Shown here: positions 14,901 to 41,915 of the stretch, one piece after another | Layout of the letters: each line of letters begins with the position of its first letter | How positions within the stretch are numbered: the first letter of the stretch is position 1 | Assembly: GCA_945890715.1 (NCBI GenBank) | Contig: CAMDCX010000014.1 | Span: 1-42,725 of the forward strand | Source of the DNA: PVC group bacterium | GTDB lineage: Bacteria > Verrucomicrobiota > Kiritimatiellia > CAIKKV01 > CAITUY01 | DNA length: 42,725 nucleotides | Direction of reading: 5' to 3' | Notes under the pieces: generated by a model | What the model was told of the DNA's origin: nothing | Seen by the model: the letters and a program-made list of their open reading frames with translations, nothing else | The model's database searches: none | Position numbers and translations under genes: made by a program

Positions 14901-15003
14901 TGACGGGAAGTTGAAGATAAGCCCATACCCCGCCGACCACCAGCAGAACGGTCATCAGAATGGTCATGACCGGACGCCGGACAAACAGTTCAGAAAATGT
15001 CAT
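11890..15003 (-). CDS. RND multidrug efflux permease (HAE-1/AcrB family)
   Basis: The 1037-residue inner-membrane pump exports lipophilic compounds using the proton gradient. It starts MTFSELFVRRPVMTILMTVLL (first helix) and has the two large periplasmic loops and twelve membrane helices of the family. The fourth-helix region GIILAVGFLVDDAIVVLEN carries the paired aspartates of the proton relay. ATG 15003 follows a GAGGGAAG ribosome site; the longer frame from 15051 overlaps nothing useful and is rejected. It is the last gene of a four-gene operon tetR-tolC-adaptor-pump, 19 bases after the adaptor. Substrate is unknown. Confidence 0.94.
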   Translation of the reverse strand: MTFSELFVRRPVMTILMTVLLVVGGVWAYLQLPVNSLPTVDYPVIQVSVAYPGASPATMASAVATPLENEFTQVPGLEFMYSDNKQGFSTITLTFNLNRNVDLVAPDVQAAITRAQNNLPKDLPSPPTYQKFNPSDSPIYYLMMYSDTLPHGELYDYANHIVARKLSMIDGVSKVEAFGSKRAVRIQFDPAKLAAYQIGVDELALALKAGTVNIPGGSLNGASRTYTIEPQGQLRAARDYDELIIATRQGNPIRLKDIARCVDSIANDLVNIRYSPPGQPDHEKCVVMRLSRVSGANTVAVADKVSVALEEAKRELPSTINLETMFNGAGPIRESLHDVQVTVVIALVMVVMVIFFFLGRIRETVIPSIVLPISLLGTFALMLPCGFNLDTLSLMGIILAVGFLVDDAIVVLENTVRHLEAGMKPIPAALQSMKEISFTVISTSAALIIVFLPLVFMTGAVGRNLREFALTVIFAIIVSTVLALTLSPMMCARILHHEKAPNRVQQWITGTIAALIRQYSRALHFQLRHKWLAVVAWAACIFGAAALYFIPGLIPKTFLPPGDSSFIFGAMIMPQGASTEQMQAYQAKVASVIKKDPHVLKLGSVTGFMPGADQSMGFVFIRLKPPSERPPIDQIAQKFMMQLAMIPDGIVGLRAMPVLKISSGGDPTAVGAEYSYMLTGLDRESVYKAGLELEREMRKIGFLIPFAFQNSVKLTMPKLNVSLDRDRASALGITATSIEQALALSFAGGYVAQFTTDQDQYQVITEIQKSNQRLPDNLSLLYLRSGTTGSLVPLKSIIKWTEEAGPQNVPHAQQHEAAVISFSAWPGVPLGLVTSAVEAKANQMMPSGVHGRFVGDALEFQKSISSLGLLLLIAIFLKYIVLGILYESYIHPFTILTTLPVAVFGGFLTLFVFGSQLSLYAYIGVFVLLGLITKNGILMVDFALQRKAEGMNSYDAIHSACVIRFRPILMTGLCAILGALPIALGYGADAASRKPLGLVVVGGMIFAQVITLFVTPGIYLYMEKIQDRFFKTRTDLE

Positions 15004-15022
15004 AATGCTTCCCTCGTTATCG

Positions 15023-16138
15023 TCAATTTTTCTGGGGTATCTTCGCCGCATCCATCACCATGGCGCCCGGGGTCAGCATGAGCTGGCCCAGCGCAATCAC
15101 CGCTTCGCCCTCGGCGACTCCGGAAACGATCTGAATCTGGTCATCCTGCCGGATCCCCGTTGTGACGGAACGCAAGTCGGCCAGATTGTTGGTTCCGGCC
15201 ACATACAGATACGGGCCTCTTTTTCCGAACTGAACCGCGCTCTCAGGCACCAGGATGGCGTCGGGAATCGACGCCACGATAATCCGGATGGTCACGAACT
15301 GGTTGGCCCAGAGTTTCAGGTCCGGGTTGGGGACTTCCCCGCGTAGAAGCAGGGTGCCGGTGGTCGGGTTTACCGCGTTATCCATGAACGACAGTGTTCC
15401 TGTAAAGGTATTCGTGTCGCCCCGCGGGGTGATTTCAACCGGAATGACGCCCCGGGCCATGGCGCTTCGGATGACCGGAAGATGTTGTTCGGAAACGGAA
15501 CATTCCAAGCGCAGCGGATTGTAGGAGCGGATATTGATCAGACGGGTCATACCCGCTGTCGCAAGGTTTCCCGCATCCACGGTGCGCTTGGAGCAGACGC
15601 CTGCCAGTGGGGAGACGATGGTGCATCGTGCGAGATTGAGCCGGGCCTGATCCAGAACGGCTTCATCCATTTTGAGTTGGGCTTCCAGGGAGGCCACCTT
15701 GGTTTTAATGGTGTCAAAGGTGTCGAGGGAAATCAGGTGTTTCTCCAACAGCGGCTGATTCCGTTTCAGGGTGGAGCGTGCCAGTTCCACGGTTGAGCGG
15801 TCGACGGCGACCATGCCCTCCGCCTGCTGAACCCGTGACGCATAATCGCGGGCGTCAATTTGGAAGAGGGGTTGGCCATTGGTCACCACGGCGCCTTCCT
15901 GAACCAGGATAGTCAGCAGAATCCCGGAAACCTGGGGAACCACATCCACATTTTCCCGGTCCTGGGTTGTGCCGTAGGCCGAGATCACCACCGGCAGGGT
16001 GGTCTTGACGGCGGGTGCCATTTTGACGATGACAGGGGGACGCTGAGGCGGCCCTCCCTTTTTCCCGCAGGCGCTGACGCCGAGAGCCAGCATACTGATC
16101 ATCAAAAGTCGTCCCGAAAGTTGAAGTGTCATAGTCAT
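15023..16138 (-). CDS. RND efflux periplasmic adaptor (membrane fusion protein), lipoprotein
   Basis: The 371-residue product bridges pump and outer-membrane channel. The lipobox LGVSAC puts the lipidated cysteine at residue 24. Next come a beta-barrel/lipoyl half (VVPQVSGILLTILVQEGAVVTNGQPLFQID), a helical hairpin rich in Ala/Leu/Lys, and the returning lipoyl half (ARCTIVSPLAGVCSKRTVDAG), then the barrel and membrane-proximal domain. ATG 16138 is chosen because GGGAG sits just upstream; a second ATG lies at 16132. One base separates it from the TolC gene. The upstream extension of the frame is shadow. Confidence 0.92.
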   Translation of the reverse strand: MTMTLQLSGRLLMISMLALGVSACGKKGGPPQRPPVIVKMAPAVKTTLPVVISAYGTTQDRENVDVVPQVSGILLTILVQEGAVVTNGQPLFQIDARDYASRVQQAEGMVAVDRSTVELARSTLKRNQPLLEKHLISLDTFDTIKTKVASLEAQLKMDEAVLDQARLNLARCTIVSPLAGVCSKRTVDAGNLATAGMTRLINIRSYNPLRLECSVSEQHLPVIRSAMARGVIPVEITPRGDTNTFTGTLSFMDNAVNPTTGTLLLRGEVPNPDLKLWANQFVTIRIIVASIPDAILVPESAVQFGKRGPYLYVAGTNNLADLRSVTTGIRQDDQIQIVSGVAEGEAVIALGQLMLTPGAMVMDAAKIPQKN

Positions 16139-16139
16139 G

Positions 16140-17603
16140 TTACCGATTCTCCCTTGCGTCCTTGTTATCCTTGCTATCCTTGAATGGGGTTCCGCCCTTT
16201 TCAATGAGTCCTGTGGCATGCGCCAGGGTTGCCAGGGCGGTGAAGACCTCCTGCCGGGCGGCGATCTGCTGGTTGCGTGCCTGTGACAATTGGTTTTCCG
16301 CGTTCAACAGGTCGAGAATGGTTTTGACGCCCGACTGGTAACTTTCAAAGGCCAGCTCCAGGGAAGCGCTGGCGCTTTTCATGGCCTGGGAGCTGAATTG
16401 GTATTTTTGCAGGGCGGTTTCATAATTCTGGAACCGGGCCCAGATTTCGGCGCTGGCAGCCAGTTCAGCCTGCTTGAGTTGGGCGCGAAGGGCCTCAGTC
16501 TGGGCTTCCGCGATGCGGACAGAGCTCAGGGTTTGGAATCCATCAAACAGGTTCCACTTCAAACTCAAGCCGCCCGTATAGGCCCAGTCGTCCGACTGGG
16601 ATGCGCGGTTGTTCAGTCCGTACAGTTCGTAATAATCGCGGGTGGCGGAGGCGGTGCCGTAGAGGGAGGGCCAGCGTGAAGCGCGGGCCACCCCGATGGA
16701 GGCCTGTCGTGAGGCAAGAGAGGCTCGGAGTGCCGAAAGATCCGGACGGCGGGCTAGAGCCTCATCGATCAGGCGGCGCACATCCTGTCCGCTGAGCGAG
16801 GAGGGAAGCGGCGCATCCGGCGGGGTGAGGGATATCCGGTTATCGGCGGGAAGACCCATCGCCTGAGCCAGCAGGCCTTGTGCAATCTGCAATTGGCCCC
16901 GGGCGCCGGTCAGAGCGTAGAGCGACTGATCATGCGTGGTCTGAGCCTGGAGCACATCTAGGTCCACTCCGAGCCCCGCATCCCGCCGCGTTGTGGCGGC
17001 ATCAAGAATGGTCTTGGCGTCCAGGGCGTTGGTGCTGGCGGCCGTCAGGCCAGCCTGTGCGCTGATGACGGTATAGTAGGCGATTTCCGCATTCAGCAGG
17101 GTGTCCTGGATGGCGCGGTTGAAGGCGAAATTCGCGGCATAAACGGTTTGAAGCGCCTGTTCCACCGCCGCACTGCGTCCGCCTCCGAAATTGCAGATCA
17201 GGTAGCTGAGTTGCAGACCGGGTCCATAAGACATGTTGTTCTGATCAAAACTTTCCGGACGCGCGACGGTGGTGACGCGGTTCAAGCCGACACCGGCCGT
17301 CAGGCTGGGCATGAAATACCCCTGGGCATAGCGGATCTGCTCGGAGGCCGCCTTGGCGTCATTCCAGGCTTTTCGCGTTGCAGGATTGTTCTGAAGGGCA
17401 ATATCCGCGATCGTCGACAGGGATTGAGGCTGGGTCAGATCGGGTGATTGGGCGCGGAGTTCCTGCCACACGGTATCGGTTTTCTGGCTATCCCGGGGAG
17501 GAACCCAGCTTTCAGTGAGGGAGGCCGGAGGCGGTGCCTGCACGCAGCCGGATAGCAATAGACCCCAGACCACAGACCCTAGACCATAGACTTTCAGATT
17601 CAT
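16140..17603 (-). CDS. TolC/OprM-type outer-membrane efflux channel, lipoprotein
   Basis: This 487-residue protein forms the trimeric outer-membrane duct of the efflux system. The signal sequence ends in LLLSGC, so Cys20 is probably lipidated as in OprM. Two repeats of the outer-membrane efflux fold are visible, each with a coiled-coil pair (for example AEIAYYTVISAQAGLTAAS and RIAEAQTEALRAQLKQAEL). ATG 17603 shares four bases with the stop of the regulator gene (ATGA). The signal peptide is encoded by a tandem heptamer repeat (see 17560-17594), which is unusual. Confidence 0.92.
   Translation of the reverse strand: MNLKVYGLGSVVWGLLLSGCVQAPPPASLTESWVPPRDSQKTDTVWQELRAQSPDLTQPQSLSTIADIALQNNPATRKAWNDAKAASEQIRYAQGYFMPSLTAGVGLNRVTTVARPESFDQNNMSYGPGLQLSYLICNFGGGRSAAVEQALQTVYAANFAFNRAIQDTLLNAEIAYYTVISAQAGLTAASTNALDAKTILDAATTRRDAGLGVDLDVLQAQTTHDQSLYALTGARGQLQIAQGLLAQAMGLPADNRISLTPPDAPLPSSLSGQDVRRLIDEALARRPDLSALRASLASRQASIGVARASRWPSLYGTASATRDYYELYGLNNRASQSDDWAYTGGLSLKWNLFDGFQTLSSVRIAEAQTEALRAQLKQAELAASAEIWARFQNYETALQKYQFSSQAMKSASASLELAFESYQSGVKTILDLLNAENQLSQARNQQIAARQEVFTALATLAHATGLIEKGGTPFKDSKDNKDARENR
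17560..17594 (-). repeat. Heptamer tandem repeat encoding the TolC-like signal peptide
   Basis: On the plus strand five consecutive heptamers begin at 17560, 17567, 17574, 17581 and 17588: AGACCCC, AGACCAC, AGACCCT, AGACCAT and AGACTTT. On the coding strand the unit is NNGGTCT. Because 7 is not a multiple of 3 the peptide repeats every seven residues, giving VYGLGSV then VWGLLLS. Confidence 0.75.
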
Positions 17604-18208
17604 TTTGGCGCCTCTCGTTTTTTTAAAGTTACCGCCGCCCTGAGGAGGGTATCCACCAGGGTTTTCACATAAACCGCCGGGGTCGCCGAACGGTAGCCGA
17701 ACAGGGTTTCGCACCAGGCGTAGTGGGCAAGCGCCCCGAGAAACAGGTGAGCCTGGATCCGCGGGGAGGCCATGGCCAGCCGGCCCGCGCGGGTTTCCGC
17801 TGTGAAATATCGGGAAAGGACCTCCATCTTCTGAATGGGGTGGGGGATTTCGCCGGGGAGATCGTGATTGGGAATCGTAACGCCGCTGGCGTTAACCATC
17901 ATCAGTCGCGGGAGCGTCAGGCGAAGTTGTTCCAGAAGATGTATGCCGGCGGATTCAAGCGCTTTGCGGGGATCACCCTTGCCGACTCCCGCCATCAGGC
18001 GTTCTTCCCAGGCGGTTCCTCCGGCTTCCACTTCCATGGCGGCCAGAAACAGGTTCGCCTTGCTTTTGAAATGCTTGAAGAGCGAGCCTTCCGAAACGCC
18101 GGCCTCCCGGGCGATGCGCGCGGTGCAGGCCTGGTAGCCGTCCCGCATAAAGACCTTGCGGGCGGCCTCGAGGATCGTTCCGGTCTGGATGGATTTAGGG
18201 CGCGCCAT
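17600..18208 (-). CDS. TetR-family transcriptional repressor of the efflux operon
   Basis: The 202-residue protein starts MARPKSIQTGTILEAARKVF and contains the TetR helix-turn-helix TARIAREAGVSEGSLFKHFKSK (residues about 30-52, given in part), followed by a helical ligand-binding domain. It is the first gene of the efflux operon and its stop overlaps the TolC start by four bases, so it most likely represses its own operon and is released by an efflux substrate. ATG 18208 is chosen over 18244: the upstream extension would run through the operator palindrome at 18228-18249. Inducer is unknown. Confidence 0.9.
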   Translation of the reverse strand: MARPKSIQTGTILEAARKVFMRDGYQACTARIAREAGVSEGSLFKHFKSKANLFLAAMEVEAGGTAWEERLMAGVGKGDPRKALESAGIHLLEQLRLTLPRLMMVNASGVTIPNHDLPGEIPHPIQKMEVLSRYFTAETRAGRLAMASPRIQAHLFLGALAHYAWCETLFGYRSATPAVYVKTLVDTLLRAAVTLKKREAPK

Positions 18209-28936: not shown

Positions 28937-29383
28937 GTGCTTCATAAACTGATTATAGCGCTCAACAATCGGCTGGTGCGGTGGCGGCGGATCAAGGTCC
29001 GGCCGGAGGAAATCCTGTTGCTCCTTCCCCATTGTCTGCACAAGCAGTCCTGTCCGAGAAATGTGATGCACAGTCTGGATGAATGCCGGCGGTGCGGGCA
29101 GTGTAGTATTGGGGCGCTGACTGCGATCCGGGATGATCTGGGGGTGGTGGCCTGTATTGCCGGCGGCGGACGCGAAGCGCTGGCCCAGACCCGGCGTCCG
29201 GAAATCAAGGCGGTGGTGGCGGTGGCCTGCGGCAAGGAATTGGTGCAGGGGATTTTTGCTGCATTCCCCAAACCCGTTCTGGCGGTTTCCAATCAGACGC
29301 CTGAAGGGCCCTGCCGGAATACGCTGGCGGATCCCGCAACCGTGATTGAGGCCATTGAGTCGTTGATGAGGGGTAAGGAGTAA
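28937..29383 (+). CDS. DUF116-family protein, cysteine-rich
   Basis: The 148-residue protein matches DUF116: a hydrophobic segment EEILLLLPHCL leads into a cysteine cluster Cys33, Cys39, Cys50, Cys53, Cys56 (pattern CX5C, then CX2CX2C in DECRRCGQC), then a Rossmann-like alpha/beta part ending MRGKE. The cysteines could bind an iron-sulfur cluster or zinc. No biochemical role is established. The start is GTG at 28937, five bases after AGGAGG. The last four codons and the stop lie in a heptamer repeat array. Confidence 0.8.
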   Translation: MLHKLIIALNNRLVRWRRIKVRPEEILLLLPHCLHKQSCPRNVMHSLDECRRCGQCSIGALTAIRDDLGVVACIAGGGREALAQTRRPEIKAVVAVACGKELVQGIFAAFPKPVLAVSNQTPEGPCRNTLADPATVIEAIESLMRGKE

Positions 29384-30865: not shown

Positions 30866-31600
30866 ATGACGAATTCAACATCAAAAGTGGCACTGGTGGT
30901 GGGGGGAAGCCGGGGGATCGGTCGGGCCATTGCCCTTCGGCTCGCCCAGTCCGGATTTGATATCTGGCTCACCTATCACCAAAATCAGGCGGCGGCGGAT
31001 GAGGTCAAGGCGGCCATTGAGGCGATGGGGCGCGCTTGCGACCTCCTGAAATTCGATGTAGGTGACCACGATGCGGCGAAGGCCGCCCTATCCGCGAAAG
31101 CGGATCAGCGGGCACCGGATGCCGTGGTGTTCAACGCCGGAATTGCCCGCGACAACCTGTTTGTGTTTATGACCAAGGCTGAATGGGATGCCGTGATCAA
31201 TACCAACCTGAACGGGTTCTACAATGTCATTCATCCGATCATCTTTTCCATGTTGCGTGAGAAACGCGGACGGATTGTGGTGATTTCCTCGACGTCCGGC
31301 CAGATCGGCCAGGCGGGTCAGGTGAACTACTCGGCGTCGAAAGCCGGGTTGATCGGGGCTGTGAAAGCCTTGGCGCGGGAAGTGGGGAAGAAGAACATCT
31401 TCGTCAATGTCGTGGCGCCCGGGGTGGTGGAGACCGAGATGGTGGCGCATCTTCCCAAGGAGCAGATTCTTCCGCTCATTCCGTTGGGCAAATTCGGGAA
31501 AACCGAAGATGTGGCTTCGATTGTGAATTATCTGTGTGCCGACGAGCACATGTATATTCAGGGCCAGGTCATAGGCGTCAACGGGGGGTTGGCTATTTGA
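30866..31600 (+). CDS. 3-oxoacyl-ACP reductase (FabG-like) of the biosynthetic cluster
   Basis: The 244-residue SDR has GGSRGIGRA (residues 13-21), NAG at about 90-92, and the catalytic Tyr155 and Lys159 in NYSASKA. It ends GQVIGVNGGLAI, the FabG C-terminal signature. It would reduce the beta-keto group on an ACP-bound chain with NADPH. The cofactor loop is VVGGSRGIG rather than the usual VTGASRGIG, as in the ApeQ-type reductases of aryl-polyene clusters. ATG 30866 follows GGACGG. Its stop TGA shares the TTGA with the next gene's start. Confidence 0.9.
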   Translation: MTNSTSKVALVVGGSRGIGRAIALRLAQSGFDIWLTYHQNQAAADEVKAAIEAMGRACDLLKFDVGDHDAAKAALSAKADQRAPDAVVFNAGIARDNLFVFMTKAEWDAVINTNLNGFYNVIHPIIFSMLREKRGRIVVISSTSGQIGQAGQVNYSASKAGLIGAVKALAREVGKKNIFVNVVAPGVVETEMVAHLPKEQILPLIPLGKFGKTEDVASIVNYLCADEHMYIQGQVIGVNGGLAI

Positions 31601-33096
31601 CGAAGTATGATCATATCGTGGTCGGAGGCGGGATCAGCGGGTTGACGGCGGCGCTGTTGCTGGCGTTGAACGGCCGCAAGGTGTTGCTCCTGGAAAAGGC
31701 ACCGCATCTGGGCGGATCCCTGGCTCGCTTCCAGCGACAGGGGATTCCATTCGACACCGGTTTTCATTTCACCGGCGGACTGCTTCCGGACGCGCTGTTG
31801 CACCGGATGCTCTCCGTGCTGGGGCTTGTGGATGACGTGGAGCCGGAATTCATGGCTTCCGAACGGGCGCATCGGTTTGTATTTGAAGCCGACAACCGGG
31901 TGATTGAAATGCCCTGCGGCATCGTGCCGCTCCGGCAGAAACTGAAGGATGAATTTCCGGCCGAAATTCAAGCAGTTGATCGCTACTTTGATCGGGTGGA
32001 AAAGGTCTGTGCCCAAACGGCCTCGATGGATCTCACCCGGCTGACGGAATCGGCGCACCGGTTGGACGAGGAATCAATCAGTCTAAAGGATGTTCTGGAT
32101 GGGTTGACCTCGAACCCGCTTCTCAAGGGAATCCTGTGCGGACTGGGGATGTGCTATGGCGTCAAGCCATCGGAGGTCTCCTTTGCGTCCCATAGCCGGG
32201 TCTGTTATGACCTCTATCAATCGACGGCCCGATTCAAGGGGGGTGGGGATGCCTTGATCACCGCCTTCAAGACTGCCTTCAACCGGTTGGGTGTGGAGGT
32301 GCGGTGTAGTCGGTGGATCACAGAATGCCGGGTGGGTGCGGATGATCACGCCAAAAGCTTTCTCCTGAATACCGGAGAGGAAGTGGCGGCTGATTCGGCG
32401 GTGCTGACGATTCATCCCAGCCATATTCTCAAACTTCTTCCCCGCAACCATATCTCCAAGGCCTTTGTCAGCCGAGTGGAGTCGTTCGAGGCGTCCTCGG
32501 GATTTTTCACGGTCTACGGGGTTTGGGATGGGGCGATGGCGCCGGGGTTTGGAGCCTCGATTGTTTCCCTTTTTCCGAACGCGAACTTTGAGCAATTACT
32601 GGATCCGTCCTATCGGGGCGAGCAGGCGCTGGTGATATGCGAAAGCGTCGAGCCGGTTCGCGGGGCGCCCCGTGGGGTGGTGACCGCATTTGAGCCGTCC
32701 TTTTACGAGCACGTGGCGCAATGGGGCGAATCCACCATCGGGCATCGTCCGGCGGCTTATGGTGACTACAAGGCCGGTCGGGTGGAAGCGATCCGGGAGC
32801 GGCTTGCCAAGTTTAACCCGGAATACCGGAGTGGCTGTCGTATTCTCGACGCGGCTTCGATGCTGACCTATCGTGACTATCTGAATTCGCCGGACGGCTC
32901 GGCGTATGGGATCAAGCAGAAAGTCGGGCAGTATAACTTGATCGGGAAGCTTCCTGTCCGTAATCTCTTTGCCGCCGGCCAGAGTTCGTTGTTGCCGGGG
33001 ATTGCGGGGGCCATGATGTCGTCGTTCATTGTGACCCGGGCGGTATTGGGCAAGGATCATTTCAACCGGTTTGTGGGTGGAGCCTTATGCAACTAA
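31597..33096 (+). CDS. FAD-dependent oxidoreductase, phytoene-desaturase/retinol-saturase-like
   Basis: The 499-residue flavoenzyme has the FAD/NAD-binding loop IVVGGGISGLTAALLLALNG at its start and EKAPHLGGSLAR just after, plus the C-terminal FAD motif LFAAGQSSLLPGIAGAMMSS, all typical of the CrtI/CrtISO/retinol-saturase group. Such enzymes insert, remove or isomerise double bonds in long hydrocarbon chains. The chosen start is TTG 31597, which forms a TTGA overlap with the FabG stop and follows a GGGGGG stretch; no ATG lies nearby in frame. It overlaps the ketosynthase gene by ten bases. It is not part of the core aryl-polyene set, so it probably tailors the chain's double bonds. Confidence 0.85.
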   Translation: MTKYDHIVVGGGISGLTAALLLALNGRKVLLLEKAPHLGGSLARFQRQGIPFDTGFHFTGGLLPDALLHRMLSVLGLVDDVEPEFMASERAHRFVFEADNRVIEMPCGIVPLRQKLKDEFPAEIQAVDRYFDRVEKVCAQTASMDLTRLTESAHRLDEESISLKDVLDGLTSNPLLKGILCGLGMCYGVKPSEVSFASHSRVCYDLYQSTARFKGGGDALITAFKTAFNRLGVEVRCSRWITECRVGADDHAKSFLLNTGEEVAADSAVLTIHPSHILKLLPRNHISKAFVSRVESFEASSGFFTVYGVWDGAMAPGFGASIVSLFPNANFEQLLDPSYRGEQALVICESVEPVRGAPRGVVTAFEPSFYEHVAQWGESTIGHRPAAYGDYKAGRVEAIRERLAKFNPEYRSGCRILDAASMLTYRDYLNSPDGSAYGIKQKVGQYNLIGKLPVRNLFAAGQSSLLPGIAGAMMSSFIVTRAVLGKDHFNRFVGGALCN

Positions 33097-34316
33097 GACG
33101 GGTCGTGATTACGGGAATGGGCAGTGTGTCGCCGTTCGGGCGCGGTGTGGCGGCGTTGACGGACGGGATTGAGGCCGGGCGCAGCGCGGTTCGCAAGATG
33201 GAAGGCTGGGGCCAGTATCTCGGGCTGCGGAGTCTGGTGGGAGCGCCAGCCGAGTTGAAAGACGAGAAGCTGATTCCGCGCCTGAATCGCCGGTCCATGG
33301 GGCGGCTGAGTATTTTTGCCGTGCAGGCGGCGCAGGATGCCGTGGCGGATGCGGGGCTTGATCCGGCGCTCGCCACAACCGGGCGGATGGGGTGTGTGGT
33401 GGGGTCAACCACCGGCAGCGCCATCAGCATCAGTCAGGCGTTTGAAACCATGTTGCCCGACCATGATCTGACCAAGTTATCCTCCATGCAGTTTTTTCAC
33501 TGTATTTCCCACACGGCCACCATGAATGTGGCCCAGTGCCTGAAGCTCAACGGCTGGGTGATGGCGACCTCCGCCGCGTGCGCTTCGGCCATGCAGGCGA
33601 TCGGTGCCGGCTACGACCTGATCCGGCTCGGGCGGCAGGATGTGATGCTCTGCGGTGGCGCCGAGGAGCTTCATCCCACCGTGACGGGTTCGTTTGATGT
33701 GCTGTTCGCCACCTCGGTGAAATACAACGACACCCCGGACCAGACGCCGCGTCCATTTGACCGGGATCGGGACGGATTGGTTTGCGGGGAGGGCGGCGGA
33801 ATTCTGGTGCTCGAGGATTATGAACATGCCGTGAAGCGCGGGGCCCCGATTCTGGCTGAGATTCTGGGCTATCACACCTGCAGTAGCGGTGACCATGTCA
33901 GCGAGTCCAGTCGCCCTGCGATGGTGACCTGCATGCACGAGGCCTTGCGGGCGGCGCAACTGGAGCCCGGCCAGGTGGACTATGTGAATGCCCACGCCAC
34001 GGCGACGATGCAGGGGGACAAGGAGGAGGCCGAGGCCATCGCGGAGGTGTTCGGAGCGAAGGTGCCGGTGAGTAGCCTCAAGGGGTACATCGGCCACACA
34101 CTCGGCGCCTCAGCGGCCATTGAGCTGGCGGCATCGTTCGCGGGGATCCGGAAAGGATTGCTCTATCCGACGTTGAACCTGCAGAATGTCAGTCCCGAGT
34201 GCCAGGGAGTGGGGCATATCATGGGTGGCGCGCTGAAGCGCGAGGCCCGCGTGGTGGTGAAGAATAGTTTTGCGTTTGGCGGAATCAGCGCTGTTCTGGT
34301 ATGCAGGATGGGATAG
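33087..34316 (+). CDS. Beta-ketoacyl-ACP synthase (KAS II, FabF-like)
   Basis: The 409-residue thiolase-fold enzyme condenses malonyl-ACP with a growing acyl chain. The active-site cysteine is Cys165 in TSAACASAMQ; the two histidines are in NAHATAT (about residue 300) and GYIGHTLGAS (about 335). The closing NSFAFGGISAVL is the usual FabF end. The catalytic set is complete, so this is a true ketosynthase and not a chain-length-factor. No second ketosynthase or chain-length factor is present in the cluster. Start overlaps the preceding gene by ten bases. Confidence 0.93.
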   Translation: MQLRRVVITGMGSVSPFGRGVAALTDGIEAGRSAVRKMEGWGQYLGLRSLVGAPAELKDEKLIPRLNRRSMGRLSIFAVQAAQDAVADAGLDPALATTGRMGCVVGSTTGSAISISQAFETMLPDHDLTKLSSMQFFHCISHTATMNVAQCLKLNGWVMATSAACASAMQAIGAGYDLIRLGRQDVMLCGGAEELHPTVTGSFDVLFATSVKYNDTPDQTPRPFDRDRDGLVCGEGGGILVLEDYEHAVKRGAPILAEILGYHTCSSGDHVSESSRPAMVTCMHEALRAAQLEPGQVDYVNAHATATMQGDKEEAEAIAEVFGAKVPVSSLKGYIGHTLGASAAIELAASFAGIRKGLLYPTLNLQNVSPECQGVGHIMGGALKREARVVVKNSFAFGGISAVLVCRMG

Positions 34317-34327
34317 AGAGGACAAAC

Positions 34328-34588
34328 ATGACCAAAGAAGAAATTATCAAGCTGACCAACAAGGTATTTGAAGATGCGTTTGAAATCGATCCGGAGAAAC
34401 TGACGCCCCAGGCGAAGATTTTTGATGAGCTTGGGCTCGACAGCCTGGATATCGTCGATTTGATCGTGGCGCTTCAGAAGCAATTCAAGGTTCAGATCCG
34501 CGAGGACGAGCGTGTTCGGACCATTCGCACCCTGGAGGATGTCTACAATTTCATTCTGATTCTGAAGCAGGAAGAAGAGAAGAAATAG
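34328..34588 (+). CDS. Acyl carrier protein
   Basis: The 86-residue acidic protein has the phosphopantetheine site DELGLDSLDIVDL (Ser39) and the four-helix ACP pattern. The C-terminal RTLEDVYNFILIL and the Lys/Glu-rich tail are typical of ACPs serving specialised pathways. It shuttles the acyl chain between the ketosynthase, reductase and dehydratase of the cluster. ATG 34328 follows GAGAGGAC; the frame from 34301 starts inside the ketosynthase. After its stop come a heptamer pair and a hairpin element before the cluster resumes. Confidence 0.95.
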   Translation: MTKEEIIKLTNKVFEDAFEIDPEKLTPQAKIFDELGLDSLDIVDLIVALQKQFKVQIREDERVRTIRTLEDVYNFILILKQEEEKK

Positions 34589-34694: not shown

Positions 34695-35459
34695 ATGCTA
34701 ATGAACAACTTCCTCAAGCGACTGATCCTGAACCTCTCCTTCTATCCCCTGTTAATCCTTTATTCCCTACTGGCGGTTCCGGTGCTGGGGCTGTTCATTG
34801 CGGTTCAGGCTCCGTTTGTGGGTCATCGCCGCGCCATGCAATTGTTTCACATGGCCATCCGGTGGTACGGACGCGGGGTGATCTATGTGTTGCCATTCCC
34901 GTGGGTTCGGGTTCGGTTTGAGAATCATTCCGGTGGTGAGATTCCCCTGCCGTGTCTTGTGATCTGTAATCACCGGTCGTCCTCGGATCCTTTTCTAATG
35001 GGGGCGCTTCCGTTCTATAATGGGGTTCAGATTGTGAACAAATGGCCCTTTAAGTTACCCTTGTGGGGGCCCATGGCGCGGTGGGCGGGGTATCTGAGCA
35101 TTAACGAGATGTCGACGGAGGAATTCTTCCAGAGGGCCTCGGCGCTGTTGCGCGACGGGGTTTCCCTGTTGGCGTTTCCGGAAGGGACGCGGGCCCGTTC
35201 CGTGGAGATGGGGCCGTTCCATGGCTCGATGTTCCGACTGGCTTTGGAAACCCAGGCGCCGATTCTGCCCCTCTGTATTTCGGGCAATGAGACCATTCCG
35301 CCGAGGGGGGCGCTGATGTTGCGGCCCGGCCGGATTGTATTGCGGAGTCTGCCGCCGGTAATGTGGGATGAGTATAAGGATCTCACGGCCTTCCAATTGA
35401 AAAACAAAGTGCGTGACCTGATATCCCGTGAATTGGCGGTTATGGAGGGGCGACTATGA
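34695..35459 (+). CDS. PlsC-like 1-acylglycerol-3-phosphate/acyl-ACP acyltransferase
   Basis: The 254-residue membrane protein has one or two N-terminal hydrophobic helices (YPLLILYSLLAVPVLGLFI) and the acyltransferase motifs NHRSSSD (His93, Asp98; HX4D) and FPEGTRAR (161-168). It would move the finished acyl chain from ACP to a glycerophosphate or another membrane acceptor at the inner membrane. Aryl-polyene clusters contain such an enzyme. A second ATG at 34701 is possible; neither has a strong ribosome site, and hairpin copy 3 sits only nine bases upstream. Its stop shares ATGA with the ligase gene start. Confidence 0.88.
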   Translation: MLMNNFLKRLILNLSFYPLLILYSLLAVPVLGLFIAVQAPFVGHRRAMQLFHMAIRWYGRGVIYVLPFPWVRVRFENHSGGEIPLPCLVICNHRSSSDPFLMGALPFYNGVQIVNKWPFKLPLWGPMARWAGYLSINEMSTEEFFQRASALLRDGVSLLAFPEGTRARSVEMGPFHGSMFRLALETQAPILPLCISGNETIPPRGALMLRPGRIVLRSLPPVMWDEYKDLTAFQLKNKVRDLISRELAVMEGRL

Positions 35460-36760
35460 AGGAATTCAAGGGAGAGCCCTTGCTGGAATGTGCGTCGGAA
35501 GACGTTGTTCGTGCGGCACAGGCTAAACGGTTTCAGACACATCTGGTTCGGTGTGCCCGGCATTCGCCTTATTACCGGCGTCTGTTCAAAGAGGCCGGAA
35601 TCAGGCCTGCGGCAGTCGATCTGGAGCGTCTGAGCAGCCTTCCCATCACCGATAAGACGGATTTTTCACGGCACAACGAGGACTTTCTTGCGGTTTCCCG
35701 GGACAAGATTGTGGATATCGTGCTGTCGTCCGGCACCACCGGAAGGCCCACGCGAATCATGTACACCGAGCGGGATCTCCGGCGGCTTGCTTATAATGAG
35801 CAAATTTCCTTTTCCGGGTGCGGAATTACGGCGGCCGATACGGCGCTCCTGACTTGTACCATGGATCGGTGTTTTATTGCCGGGCTGGCCTATTTTCTGG
35901 GCATTCGCGAGTTGGGTGCGGCGGCGATCCGGAACGGGCACGGAACGCTGGCCAGCCATTTGGAGATCATCCGGATGATCAAGCCGACGGTTCTGGTGGG
36001 CGTTCCGTCGTTCCTTCGCAAGTTGGCGGTTTTCCTGAAAGAGCATGGCGAGGATCCCGCCGGGTCGTCGGTTCGAAAACTGGTGTGCATTGGCGAGCCA
36101 GTGCGTGGGGCGGACAGGGAATTGCTCAAGCTTGGGAACGACTTGCAGGCCCTTTGGCAGGCGGATGTGTATTCGACGTATGCCTCCTCTGAATGCATCT
36201 CAACCTTTTGTGAGTGCACGGCCCAGTGCGGCGGGCACCTGCATCCCGATCTTGCGATCGTGGAAATTCTGGATGAGGCGGGACATCCCGTGGCGGCCGG
36301 GCAGACTGGGGAGGTCGTTCTGACCCCGTTGGATATCGAGGGAATGCCACTGATCCGGTTCAGGACGGGGGATGTGAGTTTCCTGATGACGGAGCCCTGC
36401 GCCTGCGGGCGAACCTCGCCCCGGCTGGGTCCGATTCTGGGCCGAAAGCAGCAGATGATGAAGGTGCGGGGCACGACGCTTTATCCGCAGGCCGTTTTTG
36501 CCGCCCTCGATGAGATTCCGGATCTGGGCGATTATTACCTGGAGATCATTGGGAAAGAGAATTTATCCGATGACCTGGTGATTCATCTCGGGGCGCGGGC
36601 GGGACAGCCCTCGCCCGAGTGGTTGAAAGAGCGGTTGCAGGCCTGCCTCCGCGTGACCCCTGTCATCGTCATTGACCCCGAGGATAAAGTACGGCACCAT
36701 TTATATTCCCCCGAATCCAGGAAGCCGGTTCGGGTATGGGATCGGAGAAAGAGCCAGTGA
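35456..36760 (+). CDS. PaaK-like AMP-dependent acyl/aryl-CoA (or ACP) ligase
   Basis: The 434-residue adenylate-forming enzyme has the ATP loop SSGTTGRPT (91-99), YASSE (242-246) and RFRTGD (301-306). A cysteine/histidine-rich segment (Cys247 to Cys258, CISTFCECTAQCGGH) followed by CACG at 315-318 probably holds a structural metal, as in phenylacetate-CoA-ligase relatives. It would activate a starter acid, possibly aromatic, and load CoA or ACP. In aryl-polyene clusters an adenylating enzyme plays this part. No ammonia-lyase that would make hydroxycinnamate lies in the window, so the starter is unknown. Confidence 0.87.
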   Translation: MKEFKGEPLLECASEDVVRAAQAKRFQTHLVRCARHSPYYRRLFKEAGIRPAAVDLERLSSLPITDKTDFSRHNEDFLAVSRDKIVDIVLSSGTTGRPTRIMYTERDLRRLAYNEQISFSGCGITAADTALLTCTMDRCFIAGLAYFLGIRELGAAAIRNGHGTLASHLEIIRMIKPTVLVGVPSFLRKLAVFLKEHGEDPAGSSVRKLVCIGEPVRGADRELLKLGNDLQALWQADVYSTYASSECISTFCECTAQCGGHLHPDLAIVEILDEAGHPVAAGQTGEVVLTPLDIEGMPLIRFRTGDVSFLMTEPCACGRTSPRLGPILGRKQQMMKVRGTTLYPQAVFAALDEIPDLGDYYLEIIGKENLSDDLVIHLGARAGQPSPEWLKERLQACLRVTPVIVIDPEDKVRHHLYSPESRKPVRVWDRRKSQ

Positions 36761-38232
36761 GTTGCCACAACCTGATGATCGGGTCGGAATTTGACAAGGC
36801 CGATATCGACTATGCCGCCCGGAACGGACGGTTGCTCTCGATGGAGATCGAGTTCGGCCTGCAATGCAATTTTCAATGCCAGTACTGCTATGTGGGGCCC
36901 ACTGGCACCGTGGTCAAGGAGTTGACCCCTGACGAGATCAAGCGGGTGATTCTGGAGGCCAAGGGGCTTGGGGCGCGCAAAATCATTGTCCTGGGCGGCG
37001 AGCCCATGATTTATCCCGGTGTCCTGGAGATGCTCGAGTTCATCCGGGGCGAGGGGCTTTCCGTGGAAGTGTTTACCAACGGCACCAACATCACGGCCGA
37101 TGTGGCGCAACGGTTGTTTGGTCTGGGCGTGCAGGTGGTACTCAAGATGAACAGCTTCAAGGAGGCCGTGCAGGACCAGTTGGCGGGAACACAAGGTGCC
37201 TACCAGATCATTCAATCGGCGTTTCGGAATTTGACGGCGGCGGGCTTCCCGTCGGAGGGGCATCCCCTGGCGGTGAGTTCAATCATCTGCAACCAGAACC
37301 TGCCTGAGATCGTGACCATGTGGCAGTGGCTCCGGGATCGACAGATTATTCCGTATTTCGAGATCATGACCCCGCAGGGGAATGCCCAGGATAACAACCA
37401 TCTGGATGTCGAACTTCCGGCGCTGCAGACACTCTTTGCCGAGTTGGCCGAGCTGGATCATGCCCGCTATGGCTATAAGTGGGAGCCACAACCGCCGCTG
37501 GTGGGTGACCGGTGCCTGCGTCATCAGTTCTCCTGCCTCGTGAATGCCGCCGGTAATGTGATGCCCTGTGTGGGGGTGACGATTCCGGTAGGTAATGTCC
37601 GGGAACGGTCCTTGGCGGATATTCTCCGAGACAGCGAAGTGATCGGGGATTTGCGAAAGTACACCCGAACCATTCATGGTCCCTGCGCCGCCTGCGAGAA
37701 GGCGGAGACCTGCTATGGGTGCCGCGGAGCGGCCTACCAGATGACGGGCGACTACCTGGCCTCCGATCCGTTGTGCTGGCGGAATTCCGGGCGCGACGGG
37801 GAGATCATGAAGCTGCCAACGGAACTGGGGTGCATGATTCCCCAGCAGGCTCCGATGCGGGTGGTGGATCGGCTCATGTCTGTGGGTGAACGGGTGGCTG
37901 TGGTGGAAACCACGGTGCAGGCGGATAATCCCTTTGTCGGGGAGGATGGCACCTTGGATTCCGCAGCCCATCTGGAGCTCATTGCCCAGGCGGCTGCGGC
38001 CATGAACGGATTCCGGACCACGGTGCGTGACGGGCAGGAGCAGGAAGGCTATCTGCTTGGGGCGCGCCAGCTGGAGGTGTTCGCTCCCGCCCGTGTTGGT
38101 GATATTCTGGCCACCCGGGTATTCAAGGCGACCCGCTATGGTGATTTCGGGGTGATTGAGGGTCAGGTGACTCGCGGGGAGGATATTCTCGCCCGCGGCG
38201 AGATCAAGGTGTGGCACCGGAGTGAAGGATGA
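36757..38232 (+). CDS. Fusion of a radical SAM/SPASM enzyme and a hotdog dehydratase (ApeP/FabZ-like)
   Basis: The 491-residue protein joins two folds. Residues about 30-345 are a radical SAM domain with the cluster motif CNFQCQYC (Cys37, Cys41, Cys44), the LGGEP loop and a SPASM region with eight further cysteines (253, 260, 271, 310, 313, 319, 322, 340), enough for two auxiliary iron-sulfur clusters. Residues about 351-491 start MKLPTELGCMIPQQAPMRVVDR and form a hotdog fold like 3-hydroxyacyl-ACP dehydratases; the likely catalytic Glu407 sits in HLELIAQ, while the FabZ histidine is absent as in ApeP-type proteins. Start GTG 36757 is chosen (GGAG upstream, GTGA overlap); ATG 36736 is the alternative. 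The fusion is not known to me from standard aryl-polyene clusters. Confidence 0.85.
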   Translation: MSCHNLMIGSEFDKADIDYAARNGRLLSMEIEFGLQCNFQCQYCYVGPTGTVVKELTPDEIKRVILEAKGLGARKIIVLGGEPMIYPGVLEMLEFIRGEGLSVEVFTNGTNITADVAQRLFGLGVQVVLKMNSFKEAVQDQLAGTQGAYQIIQSAFRNLTAAGFPSEGHPLAVSSIICNQNLPEIVTMWQWLRDRQIIPYFEIMTPQGNAQDNNHLDVELPALQTLFAELAELDHARYGYKWEPQPPLVGDRCLRHQFSCLVNAAGNVMPCVGVTIPVGNVRERSLADILRDSEVIGDLRKYTRTIHGPCAACEKAETCYGCRGAAYQMTGDYLASDPLCWRNSGRDGEIMKLPTELGCMIPQQAPMRVVDRLMSVGERVAVVETTVQADNPFVGEDGTLDSAAHLELIAQAAAAMNGFRTTVRDGQEQEGYLLGARQLEVFAPARVGDILATRVFKATRYGDFGVIEGQVTRGEDILARGEIKVWHRSEG

Positions 38233-38882
38233 AAGCGGGAAAGCGTGTTCCCTGTCTTCTGACTTCTGTCTTCTGTCTTCTGACTCCTGTGTTCTCCGCT
38301 TCCGCCGCCGACACGTCGCTTCTCGCCGAGCTTCAGAAAAGCCTTGCCGGTACCACCAATGTCCAGAGTGAGTTCATTCAGGAAAAAACGCTCTCGTTAC
38401 TTCAGCAGACTGTGGTGATCAAGGGGCGGCTGGCTGTCGAGCAACCGGCCAGGCTGTCATGGCAGGTGTTGGAACCGATCCGCTATAACATGGTGCTCGA
38501 TGGCACGGTTCTGAAGCAGTGGGACGAGACTACCGGAAAGGTGCAGACGATGTCCCTGGCGGGTAATCCCGTGTTTAAGGTGGTGGTCAATCAACTTCGC
38601 GCCTGGTTTTCCGGGCAGTTCGATTTGTTGACCCAGGATTTTGATGCCCGGGCTGAGGCGTCCACTTCAACTCCGACCATTATCTTCACTCCGAAAGAGG
38701 GAAGCTTTGCCGTGAAGGTGATCCAGCGCGTGGTGTTGACGTTCAGGGAGGATCGCCGGTATATCCAGACCCTGCTGATTGAGGAACGGACGGGCGACCG
38801 AACCCTGATGACCTTCACCCAGTCGATCCTCAATGCCGCCATTCCCCCGGCGGCATGGGAGGTCAAGCCGCATGGACGGTAG
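38229..38882 (+). CDS. LolA-like outer-membrane lipoprotein carrier
   Basis: The 217-residue periplasmic protein has a signal peptide cleaved near SASA-AD (residues 26-27) and the LolA fold: QSEFIQEKTLSLLQQTVVIKG, then RLSWQVLEPIRYNMVLDG and later VLTFREDRRYIQTLLIEE. LolA carries lipids or lipoproteins across the periplasm; a copy with an MMPL pump is characteristic of aryl-polyene/flexirubin clusters and probably ferries the product. ATG 38229 overlaps the preceding stop (ATGA). The hydrophobic core of its signal peptide is CLLTSVF repeated with one change, encoded by six tandem heptamers. Confidence 0.85.
   Translation: MKAGKRVPCLLTSVFCLLTPVFSASAADTSLLAELQKSLAGTTNVQSEFIQEKTLSLLQQTVVIKGRLAVEQPARLSWQVLEPIRYNMVLDGTVLKQWDETTGKVQTMSLAGNPVFKVVVNQLRAWFSGQFDLLTQDFDARAEASTSTPTIIFTPKEGSFAVKVIQRVVLTFREDRRYIQTLLIEERTGDRTLMTFTQSILNAAIPPAAWEVKPHGR
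38253..38294 (+). repeat. TGNCTTC heptamer array encoding the LolA-like signal peptide
   Basis: Six heptamers run without interruption: TGTCTTC (38253), TGACTTC (38260), TGTCTTC (38267), TGTCTTC (38274), TGACTCC (38281), TGTGTTC (38288). Three heptamers make 21 bases, so the peptide repeats every seven residues: CLLTSVF then CLLTPVF, the complete hydrophobic core. Confidence 0.85.
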
Positions 38883-41250
38883 TGTTTTTCTTCGGATTTT
38901 CTCGCGACTGGAACGGCGACGGAATCTGGTCATTGGCCTGTTGCTCACCCTTTTGGCCCTGGCCGGGCTGAGTCTGGTGCGGATCCGGTTCGACAATACG
39001 CTCGACCTGATGCTCCCGACCGACAGTCCGGCCCAGCGGATGATGGCCTTCCTGAGAACCGCGAATTTCTCGAACAAGATCGTCATTTCCCTGGAGGCAA
39101 AGGACACGGCAGATGCCCGGGGCACATTAATGGAGGCCTCGGATAAACTGGCGGCCTCCCTTCAGTCGCCTCTGATTAGCAAGGTGATTTCCGGTTTTTC
39201 GGCCCCGGATCTGATGGCCGATGCCGGATTTTTCCTGCGCTATGCGCCGCAGATTCTGACGGCCAACGATCTGGCTTTGATGGATTCCGAAATGAACTCC
39301 GGCGGGATCAGCGGGGTGGTGCAGCGGTTGTATTATCAGCTCCTGAAACCCGAGGGCATGTTCATGGCTCGCGCGATCCGGTCCGATCCGTTGGCCATCA
39401 ACCAGATGATTCTGGGGCGGTTGGAAAAACTCTCCACGAGCATGGGCTATGACGTCACCATGGAGGGAGGGCATTTTATCAGTCGAGATGGCCGTCATAC
39501 CATGCTCCTTCTGGAGACGACGGTACCGCTCACCGATGCTTCCGGGGCCCGGAAAGTCTTGAGTTTTCTCAAGGAGCAGCTCAGTCGGCTTCCGGTCGGA
39601 ATTACGGGATCCCTGGTCTGCGGCCACACGCATGTGGTGAGCAACGAGGATACCATTCAGCGGGATCTGGGCGTGGTGCTCTCGCTGGCCTCGGTCGCCT
39701 TCATCATTCTCTATATTGGATTTTTCAGGGATAAGCGGGCGCTGCTGATATTTTTGGTTCCGGCCCTTGCCGCCGTGGTGGCGCTGGCCATCACCGCGCT
39801 TTTCTTTCCGCGCCTCTCCTATTTTGTGATTGCCTTCGGGCCTGTGATTGCCGGGATCGCCGACGATTACGGGATTGCCGTGTATGTGGCGATCCGGCAT
39901 GGGTCGAACCGGGCCGAGTCCGTTCGGCATATCGTTTCCCCCGTTACGGCCGGTGCTTTGACGACGACGGCTATCTTTTTTGCCTTTTTCTTTTCCCGCA
40001 TACCCGGCTATTACCAGTTGGCCTGGTTCTGCATACTCAGTCTTCTCCTGACGGTGGTGTTGGCCCTTTATGTCCTGCCCCTTTTCCTCAAACCCGGGAA
40101 AACTCCGGAGGAGCACGATGCCTCTCCGTCCTTTACTCCTCCTCGACAGTCTCGCCTGCTTCTGGCCGTCTTTGCCGTTCTTTTCATTCTTGCCACTGTC
40201 CTGGCCACCCGTGTGAAATTCGACAGCGATATCACGCGCCTCGATGGAACAGCTCCCGACATTCTCAAGGCGGAGGATGATTTCCGTGCGGTGTGGGGGA
40301 CGGGCGAGAGGAAAGAGGCGATTCTGGCGGTAATGGGGAACGGGTATGAGGAGGTTCGCGAAAAGACCGATGCGATTTATAAAGACGCGGTTGCCGCTGT
40401 GGGTGCCACGCAGTTCGTGAGCCTGGCCTCGGTCTGGCCTTCGGGGAAAACCCGGGCGGAGCGGGCCCGGGCGTGGACGGAGTTCTGGCGCGACGGGCGC
40501 GAGGTGAAGTTAAGGGGATTGCTGGCGGAGCAGGGAGCGGCTTGCGGGTTCGCCACCAATGCCTTCGAGCCTTTTTTTGAGCATCTCTATGACGGGACGA
40601 TTCTGACGGATGAACCGGTCTCGAATCAGGTGCTGGTTACTCTCAAGGATCGATTTATCCAGACGCCGAACGGGCGGTACCAGACGCTGTCATTCTTTCC
40701 CGACACGCCGGAAGTGGGGGTCGCGCTGGGCCGCGTGGTGAAGGATCGGACGGATGCGTTCATTGTTTCCCGGACGGCGATGGGCGCCATTCTTTCTGAT
40801 GCGTTTACCGGTGAGGTCGTCCGGACATCGCTGTTGGCGGGGCTGCTGATTATTGTCACGGCCTGGTTGTTCATTCGCAGCATTCCGCTGACGCTGATCG
40901 CCCTGTCGCCTGCATTTTCATCGGTGGTCGGGTTGTTGGCGATTATGGGGCTGATGGGGCGGCCTCTCACGGTGGCGAACCTGATTTCAGGCATTGTGGT
41001 GTTTGGACTCAGTATTGATTTCGGGATGCACATTCTGCATGCGTGCCGTCATCCTCAGGGATTGCATGCCCGGCTGGCCGTAACCTTTGCGGCGATCACG
41101 ACGGTGATGGGAGCGGCGGTGTTGTTGTTTGCGCGTCATCCGGCGCTGTATTCGATCGGGCTGACGCTGACGATCGGAGTGGCGCTGGGCTATATTGCCG
41201 CCATGTGGTTGGTGCCGGTATTGTATGGAGTATTCGGGGGGAGAAAATGA
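38872..41250 (+). CDS. MMPL/RND-superfamily exporter of the cluster
   Basis: The 792-residue inner-membrane transporter has the two-times-six-helix MMPL layout: a first helix (VIGLLLTLLALAGLSLV), a periplasmic domain, a five-helix block with FGPVIAGIADDYGIAVYV (paired Asp), a second periplasmic domain and a mirrored block ending VFGLSIDFGMHILH. Relatives in aryl-polyene and flexirubin clusters are thought to move the lipid product out of the inner membrane. ATG 38872 follows GGGAGG; it overlaps the LolA gene by eleven bases. The frame upstream of this ATG is rejected. Confidence 0.9.
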   Translation: MDGSVFLRIFSRLERRRNLVIGLLLTLLALAGLSLVRIRFDNTLDLMLPTDSPAQRMMAFLRTANFSNKIVISLEAKDTADARGTLMEASDKLAASLQSPLISKVISGFSAPDLMADAGFFLRYAPQILTANDLALMDSEMNSGGISGVVQRLYYQLLKPEGMFMARAIRSDPLAINQMILGRLEKLSTSMGYDVTMEGGHFISRDGRHTMLLLETTVPLTDASGARKVLSFLKEQLSRLPVGITGSLVCGHTHVVSNEDTIQRDLGVVLSLASVAFIILYIGFFRDKRALLIFLVPALAAVVALAITALFFPRLSYFVIAFGPVIAGIADDYGIAVYVAIRHGSNRAESVRHIVSPVTAGALTTTAIFFAFFFSRIPGYYQLAWFCILSLLLTVVLALYVLPLFLKPGKTPEEHDASPSFTPPRQSRLLLAVFAVLFILATVLATRVKFDSDITRLDGTAPDILKAEDDFRAVWGTGERKEAILAVMGNGYEEVREKTDAIYKDAVAAVGATQFVSLASVWPSGKTRAERARAWTEFWRDGREVKLRGLLAEQGAACGFATNAFEPFFEHLYDGTILTDEPVSNQVLVTLKDRFIQTPNGRYQTLSFFPDTPEVGVALGRVVKDRTDAFIVSRTAMGAILSDAFTGEVVRTSLLAGLLIIVTAWLFIRSIPLTLIALSPAFSSVVGLLAIMGLMGRPLTVANLISGIVVFGLSIDFGMHILHACRHPQGLHARLAVTFAAITTVMGAAVLLFARHPALYSIGLTLTIGVALGYIAAMWLVPVLYGVFGGRK

Positions 41251-41915
41251 ACAGGCGATGTTCAATTTTCGGAGTGCTTATTTTGTTCATGGTGTCCTGC
41301 CGTTCCCTGCCGCCACTTGCCCCTGAGGATGCGGGAAGGGTTCCCCTGGCGTATGAGCAAGCGCTTCCGGTTTCCTTCAAGGCGCAGCAAACCCTGGTGT
41401 TTGAATTCAAGCCACACTGGTGGTGGCCGACGGTTCGCCTGACGGCGCTGGGTTATGCCACGGTCAACCGCAAGACGGGAGATTACGCGGTGGTGTGTTT
41501 ATCGCCCTTGGGGGTGAAGTTGTTTGATGTGGCCTGTTCGAACGGGGTGACGGCTACGCGAATGATGATTCCGGCGGGTGGCGATCAGGGTGGCATGGGC
41601 AAGGCCATCAGTGACGATATCAGCAACCTTTTTTTCAATCTGGTTCCCGGTACGAACGCCACAGTCAAACAGAGCGGCGCCCGGCTTGTCTTTCGGAGTG
41701 AAGGGAGCGAGCACGAGTTCAGTCGCGTCACCCGCCAGCTTGTTCGGAAAAAGGGTTGGAATGCTGAATCCCGTAGTACCCTCATTTTCAGTGACTACAG
41801 GAGCGAGGAGGGGGTGTTGTATCCCGCAACCATGATGTTGCAAAACCACCGCTATCACTACCGCCTCACGATCCATACCTTAAAGATGGCCGCGACTTTC
41901 ACTCCGGCGTTTTGA
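41247..41915 (+). CDS. DUF3261-family outer-membrane-associated lipoprotein
   Basis: The 222-residue protein starts MNRRCSIFGVLILFMVSC; Cys18 is the probable lipidated residue. The beta-rich remainder (KAQQTLVFEFKPHWWWPTVRLTALG, then KTGDYAVVCLSPLGVKLFDV, given in part) matches DUF3261 proteins, which are LolB-like and regularly found next to the MMPL and LolA genes of aryl-polyene clusters. It may receive the lipid from the carrier at the outer membrane. It begins with an ATGA overlap and ends the cluster; its last 17 bases overlap the convergent peroxidase gene. Confidence 0.82.
   Translation: MNRRCSIFGVLILFMVSCRSLPPLAPEDAGRVPLAYEQALPVSFKAQQTLVFEFKPHWWWPTVRLTALGYATVNRKTGDYAVVCLSPLGVKLFDVACSNGVTATRMMIPAGGDQGGMGKAISDDISNLFFNLVPGTNATVKQSGARLVFRSEGSEHEFSRVTRQLVRKKGWNAESRSTLIFSDYRSEEGVLYPATMMLQNHRYHYRLTIHTLKMAATFTPAF

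Follow-up and report, generated by a model that had tools for sequence, protein, structure and literature searches.

A single gene in a Verrucomicrobiota genome (class Kiritimatiellia) joins a radical SAM/SPASM enzyme to a hotdog domain that is strongly predicted to be one of the two parts of a split beta-hydroxyacyl-ACP dehydratase. Its operon has the gene content of aryl-polyene and flexirubin pathways. The gene occupies positions 36757 to 38232 on the forward strand of the 42,725-nucleotide stretch of DNA that was analyzed here (the window), and all genes of its operon are read from this same strand. We put the probability at roughly 0.55 that its product is a dehydratase subunit carrying an accessory radical enzyme, and that this enzyme most likely makes or finishes the aryl starter.

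The gene is one uninterrupted open frame, and its Pfam and 6qsr_B matches confirm the pairing of a SPASM-type radical SAM enzyme with a hotdog domain that was proposed in an earlier note on this DNA. An in-frame ATG at 36736 would give a product of 498 amino acids, and the GTG at 36757 gives one of 491. The GTG is the better start because it overlaps the stop codon of the upstream ligase gene as GTGA, GGAG lies approximately 9 nucleotides before it, and the MSCH.. N-termini of some relatives match it. We therefore accept the 491-residue frame and, with it, the numbering of Glu407 used below. The radical SAM core (36850 to 37485; PF04055, 1.2e-20) contains the CX3CX2C motif as CNFQCQYC (36865 to 36888) and is followed by a SPASM region (37513 to 37776; PF13186, 3e-8) arranged as CX12GX4C ... 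CX2CX5CX2C ... C, with both Pfam matches above cut-off. Across 12 aligned proteins, the core cysteines (C44, C48, and C51 in the 498-residue numbering) are invariant, as are seven SPASM cysteines (260, 278, 317, 320, 326, 329, and 347 in the same numbering). Eight SPASM cysteines had been counted originally; seven of these hold, and C267 is not conserved. The N-terminal part has the intact set of residues predicted to bind the cofactors of a radical SAM/SPASM enzyme.

An AlphaFold model of the fusion protein was built from the 12 aligned proteins (mean pLDDT 80). In fold searches, its radical part resembles SkfB, SuiB, and PqqE, and its hotdog resembles 6qsr_B (fold E 4.7e-11), which belongs to the PDB entry “The Dehydratase Heterocomplex ApeI:P.” Profile and fold comparisons give AhbD/NirJ2, PqqE, SkfB, and SuiB as the best neighbors of the radical domain, which scores below the NCBIfam cut-offs for the AhbD, NirJ2, PqqE, MftC, and GeoRSP equivalogs (best score 130.7 bits versus 500).

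The C-terminal hotdog (37807 to 38229) most resembles ApeP. As a single sequence, it matches the ApeP-like family PF22817 at 6e-4 (19.9 bits, below the cut-off of 27) and recovers 6qsr_B from the PDB at 2.3e-8. As a profile, its best match is again 6qsr_B, the ApeP chain (1.4e-18), with FabZ-type chains next (2e-7). In FabZ, the His of one subunit opposes the Glu of the other. Among the aligned rows of fused hotdogs, Glu407 (37975 to 37977; residue 414 in the 498-residue numbering) is present in 22 of 22, and a His at the FabZ position is present in none of the 22. The ApeI-like partner, whose profile was searched independently and best matches the ApeI chain 6qsr_A (5.5e-16), has GHF in 15 of 15 rows, and the position 14 residues beyond its His is not conserved (Q in six, S in two, E in two, and others), with no conserved acid. 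These patterns argue strongly that the fused hotdog is of the ApeP type, the Glu-bearing part of a split beta-hydroxyacyl-ACP dehydratase. The alignments indicate that the complementary His is carried by the separate ApeI-like protein. ApeI and ApeP are described as pairing into a heterodimer that has one active site (PMC8041823). The original description of an ApeP/FabZ-like domain with Glu407 stands as regards the likeness to ApeP and the invariant Glu, but, as every row lacks the His, we reject a complete FabZ-like dehydratase with both His and Glu in one chain. One contig (L115, 9748 to 10551, forward strand) encodes a natural single-chain ApeP-ApeI hotdog fusion of 267 amino acids, a ready subject for structural work on the split enzyme.

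No ApeI-like gene was found in the window's own MAG (89.5% complete), and a candidate there was rejected as a housekeeping FabZ encoded beside lpxA. In sister genomes, which are 93 to 95% identical over the fusion protein, the ApeI-like gene lies beside genes for a thioesterase and a second ketosynthase (KS) on another contig. In genome G242, the contig with these three genes additionally encodes the short KS-like protein and the B12-radical SAM protein. We take the missing ApeI-like gene to reflect genome incompleteness.

The proposed setting among ACP-dependent enzymes is borne out by the gene content of the operon. Upstream of the fusion lie genes for a FabG/FlxB-like ketoreductase (30866 to 31600; Pfam and NCBIfam), a CrtD/phytoene-desaturase-like FAD enzyme (31534 to 33096, with a start probably near 31600; Pfam and NCBIfam), a FabF-like KS (33087 to 34316; nearest NCBIfam model PRK09116), an acyl carrier protein (34301 to 34588; PF00550, 4.4e-11), a lysophospholipid-type acyltransferase (34695 to 35459; PF01553), and a FlxY-like aryl-acid ligase (35456 to 36760; NF053551, 5e-137). 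Downstream lie genes for a LolA-like carrier (38229 to 38882; PF03548, 1.3e-11; NF053544 LolA2_flexi, 1.4e-24), an MMPL/RND-like exporter (38833 to 41250; HpnN/MMPL-type models), and a DUF3261 lipoprotein (41247 to 41915; PF11659, 1.1e-4). NF053551 is the nearest family of the ligase, whose score of 457 bits is below the NCBIfam cut-off of 520, and “coumarate” as its substrate is therefore an extrapolation.

Operon content and synteny are common to 20 or more relatives. Gene order in the cluster is conserved as FabG, FAD enzyme, KS, ACP, acyltransferase, FlxY-like ligase, fusion, LolA, and MMPL exporter, continuing with DUF3261 (in some), ApeI-like protein, 4HBT thioesterase, second KS, short KS-like protein, and B12-radical SAM protein; in the window and the sister genomes, the second half of this cluster is located elsewhere. 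With KS, KR, ACP, split DH, ligase, LolA, and exporter together, the flexirubin/aryl-polyene gene set is present, and we predict from it that the operon encodes a pathway for an aryl-polyene or flexirubin-like lipid. Aryl-polyene genes have been named as one possible cause of the yellow color of two Kiritimatiellae isolates (Pontiella) (PMC7356697).

Several other features of these loci were recorded. In fused clusters with coverage of the upstream part, those with a pseudo-radical-SAM domain among them, a gene for the CrtD-like FAD enzyme is present; the unfused clusters examined showed no such gene. Genes for B12-binding radical SAM proteins accompany the clusters, sometimes two in a row (L076, 217 to 1491, reverse strand; L045, 16597 to 17847 and 17884 to 19209, forward strand). 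A DUF116 protein is encoded just upstream of the operon (window positions 28937 to 29383) and is also retained in L031, a near-identical sister contig. The window also encodes an RND efflux set with an AcrB-type pump, an HlyD-type adaptor, and an outer membrane efflux protein (11890 to 17714, reverse strand), as well as an alpha-2-macroglobulin-like protein of 2,069 amino acids (249 to 6458).

A protein search found the fusion in 23 of 241 genomes of the phylum. A search with the hotdog profile found a fused frame, or one that is fused at a contig edge, in approximately 33 of 388 phylum genomes from 11 families, and for seven of these 33 (G328, G278, G290, G361, G267, G370, and G326) the fusion was read from open-frame length only. 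Relatives with an unfused ApeP exist, as might be expected if an error in sequencing or assembly had merged two adjacent genes. However, many independent assemblies, whose fusion proteins share approximately 40 to 56% identity, agree in joining the two parts in frame at the same place between SPASM and hotdog through a similarly short linker. Such an error is thus rejected as extremely improbable, and the junction, at which the earlier note had suspected a possible joining of two genes, is genuine.

Among the genomes sampled (those of the phylum and 299 from Pseudomonadota), the architecture was seen only in this phylum; two matches were obtained in the Pseudomonadota genomes, both to the radical part only. 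Plasmid and Gilliamella matches were likewise restricted to the radical part and were set aside, and the viral contigs searched yielded no relative. One contig (L124, 1468 to 3708, reverse strand) has an open frame of 746 amino acids that matches the radical SAM, ApeP, and LolA proteins and is a possible triple fusion.

The radical domain has a different history from that of the ApeP domain. One syntenic cluster (L107) has a bare ApeP of 138 amino acids and no radical domain, another that is equipped for chain building (L112) likewise lacks it, and genus g73 has neither the radical domain nor a nearby FlxY gene, its FlxY homologue being located elsewhere. In two further clusters (L059, 8799 to 10088, and L117, 9022 to 10284, both forward strand), a pseudo-radical-SAM protein has lost CX3CX2C and kept the SPASM cysteines and ApeP. 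On a tree of ApeP domains, the fused label requires seven changes, of which the starred branches force at least four, compared to a mean of 12.5 for shuffled labels; several rows sit on long branches, and the change count alone leaves gains possible. Repeated loss of the radical domain appears to be the simpler reading of this tree because unfused rows are nested within the fused clade at several places. The radical domain is an accessory that is dispensable for the core pathway, since L107 and g73 lack the domain and L059 and L117 lack CX3CX2C, with ApeP kept throughout. That the radical half is repeatedly lost, disabled, or replaced while the dehydratase half stays hints at a separate job for it.

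Such a job might be performed off the chain altogether, on a peptide, protein, or cofactor, with the fusion providing co-expression or scaffolding, and scaffolding only in the pseudo-radical-SAM relatives. The best neighbors AhbD/NirJ2, PqqE, SkfB, and SuiB are haem- and peptide-modifying enzymes, and the retention of SPASM cysteines beside a decayed core in two relatives also fits this explanation. However, the conserved position beside the starter ligase points elsewhere, and no precursor-peptide-like gene was noted in an unsystematic look at the conserved operon. We consider off-chain modification rather unlikely.

The role that we favor, if only tentatively, concerns the aryl starter, which the radical domain would supply or complete. 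In Chitinophaga pinensis, FlxA is a tyrosine ammonia-lyase and FlxY is a 4-coumarate-CoA ligase by assay, and together they initiate the polyene (PMC3992019). In L115, an aromatic ammonia-lyase (4.5e-170) is encoded between FlxY and ApeP-ApeI, which is the slot of the radical domain. Homologues of this FlxA-type lyase occur in 27 of 388 genomes. They are present in none of the 33 fused genomes versus 7 of 15 genomes with a close unfused ApeP (Fisher p = 9e-5), or 0 of 11 versus 4 of 6 when counted by family (p = 0.006), in a comparison that was made after the L115 pattern was noticed and that ignores phylogeny among related genomes from few families. The lyases of family f56 are on contigs other than that of ApeP. 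This mutual exclusivity of lyase and fused radical domain favors the starter role but is suggestive only. Genome G148 encodes an unfused radical SAM/SPASM protein whose gene forms a row with those for a FlxY homologue and a B12-radical SAM protein and lies away from ApeP. Counting against the starter role, G079, genus g73, and the pseudo-radical-SAM genomes have a FlxY homologue and neither a lyase nor an active radical domain. These lineages must have another source of starter, or else the exclusivity reflects lineage inheritance; no common substitute gene was found beside FlxY in the genomes that lack the radical domain.

In the mechanism that we propose, the ApeP domain and the ApeI-like protein would dehydrate each beta-hydroxyacyl-ACP to create the conjugated double bonds, as homology to ApeI:ApeP suggests. 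The radical domain would provide or finish the aryl starter that is activated by the FlxY-like ligase, the task that flexirubin clusters assign to FlxA. In a chemically plausible version, it would carry out a two-electron oxidation of an arylpropionyl thioester at the benzylic/beta carbon, with a cinnamoyl thioester as the product and the fused ApeP or ACP holding the molecule. Attachment of a radical oxidase to ApeP would make sense in this version because the normal product of ApeP is likewise a trans-2-enoyl-ACP. A more specific proposal, which is conceivable although we would not expect it, is that the radical domain offers a new, oxygen-independent route to the cinnamoyl-type starter of aryl polyenes, replacing the ammonia-lyase, and that its substrate is a small molecule bound to a carrier or to CoA and presented by the fused dehydratase subunit.

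The earlier note had instead suggested chemistry on an ACP-bound chain. The radical SAM/SPASM domain might cyclize, crosslink, desaturate, or otherwise tailor a growing or finished ACP-bound polyene that is presented by the fused ApeP. This idea gains from how closely the radical domain is tied to an acyl-ACP-binding domain, the two being fused in approximately 33 genomes, and clusters with a CrtD-like FAD enzyme and a B12-radical SAM protein recall the Kuenenia and Desulfotalea FASII clusters, in which SAM radical enzymes occur with phytoene-desaturase-like proteins (PMC2649909). We doubt it because the radical part is repeatedly absent while ApeP is kept, including in L107 and L112, which are otherwise equipped for chain building, and because an ammonia-lyase occupies its position in L115. 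The unfused radical domain of G148, with FlxY and away from ApeP, also speaks against it. The absences and the lyase substitution point to the aryl starter at least as much as to the growing chain, and we rank action on the chain, itself not probable, just after the starter role.

Each half of the fusion protein is of a known kind; what is apparently new, at least to us, is their pairing, along with its evolutionary history. As the earlier note had supposed, we found no described family with this fusion: no Pfam or NCBIfam model describes it, and a search of the open-access literature, with subscription papers mostly outside its scope, returned no paper that pairs radical SAM with a hotdog fusion, aryl polyenes, or flexirubin. 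With a variant of this kind, spread across a phylum and having a radical enzyme fused to the dehydratase subunit, the aryl-polyene pathway would gain a new chemical step. Because nature offers the radical part in fused, decayed, absent, and lyase-replaced forms, a comparison of products could test the question directly. The SPASM enzymes AhbD/NirJ2, PqqE, MftC, and SkfB share the CX3CX2C core and SPASM cysteines with the fusion protein, and to our knowledge none has a hotdog domain. Many characterized SPASM enzymes make peptide natural products (PMC9012708), and one acting on an acyl or aryl thioester, if true, would widen the class.

The closest parallels are as follows. Like the ApeI:ApeP system (PDB 6QSR; Acinetobacter ApeH-I/ApeP, in which ApeI is fused to the ligase ApeH [PMC8041823]), the clusters described here have an ApeP with Glu, an ApeI-like protein with His, and KS, KR, ACP, LolA, and exporter neighbors, but here ApeP bears an N-terminal radical SAM/SPASM domain. 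The flexirubin cluster of C. pinensis (FlxA/FlxY) likewise has the FlxY-like ligase, FlxB-like reductase, LolA2, acyltransferase, and exporter, whereas the fused genomes have the radical SAM-ApeP fusion and a CrtD-like FAD enzyme instead of a FlxA-type lyase. FASII clusters of anammox bacteria and Desulfotalea, for which ladderane and anaerobic PUFA synthesis has been proposed (PMC2649909), similarly encode radical SAM and phytoene-desaturase-like enzymes alongside FASII functions; the part of that source considered here describes no radical SAM-ApeP fusion for them, whereas the fusion reported here resides in an exporter operon of the flexirubin/aryl-polyene type.
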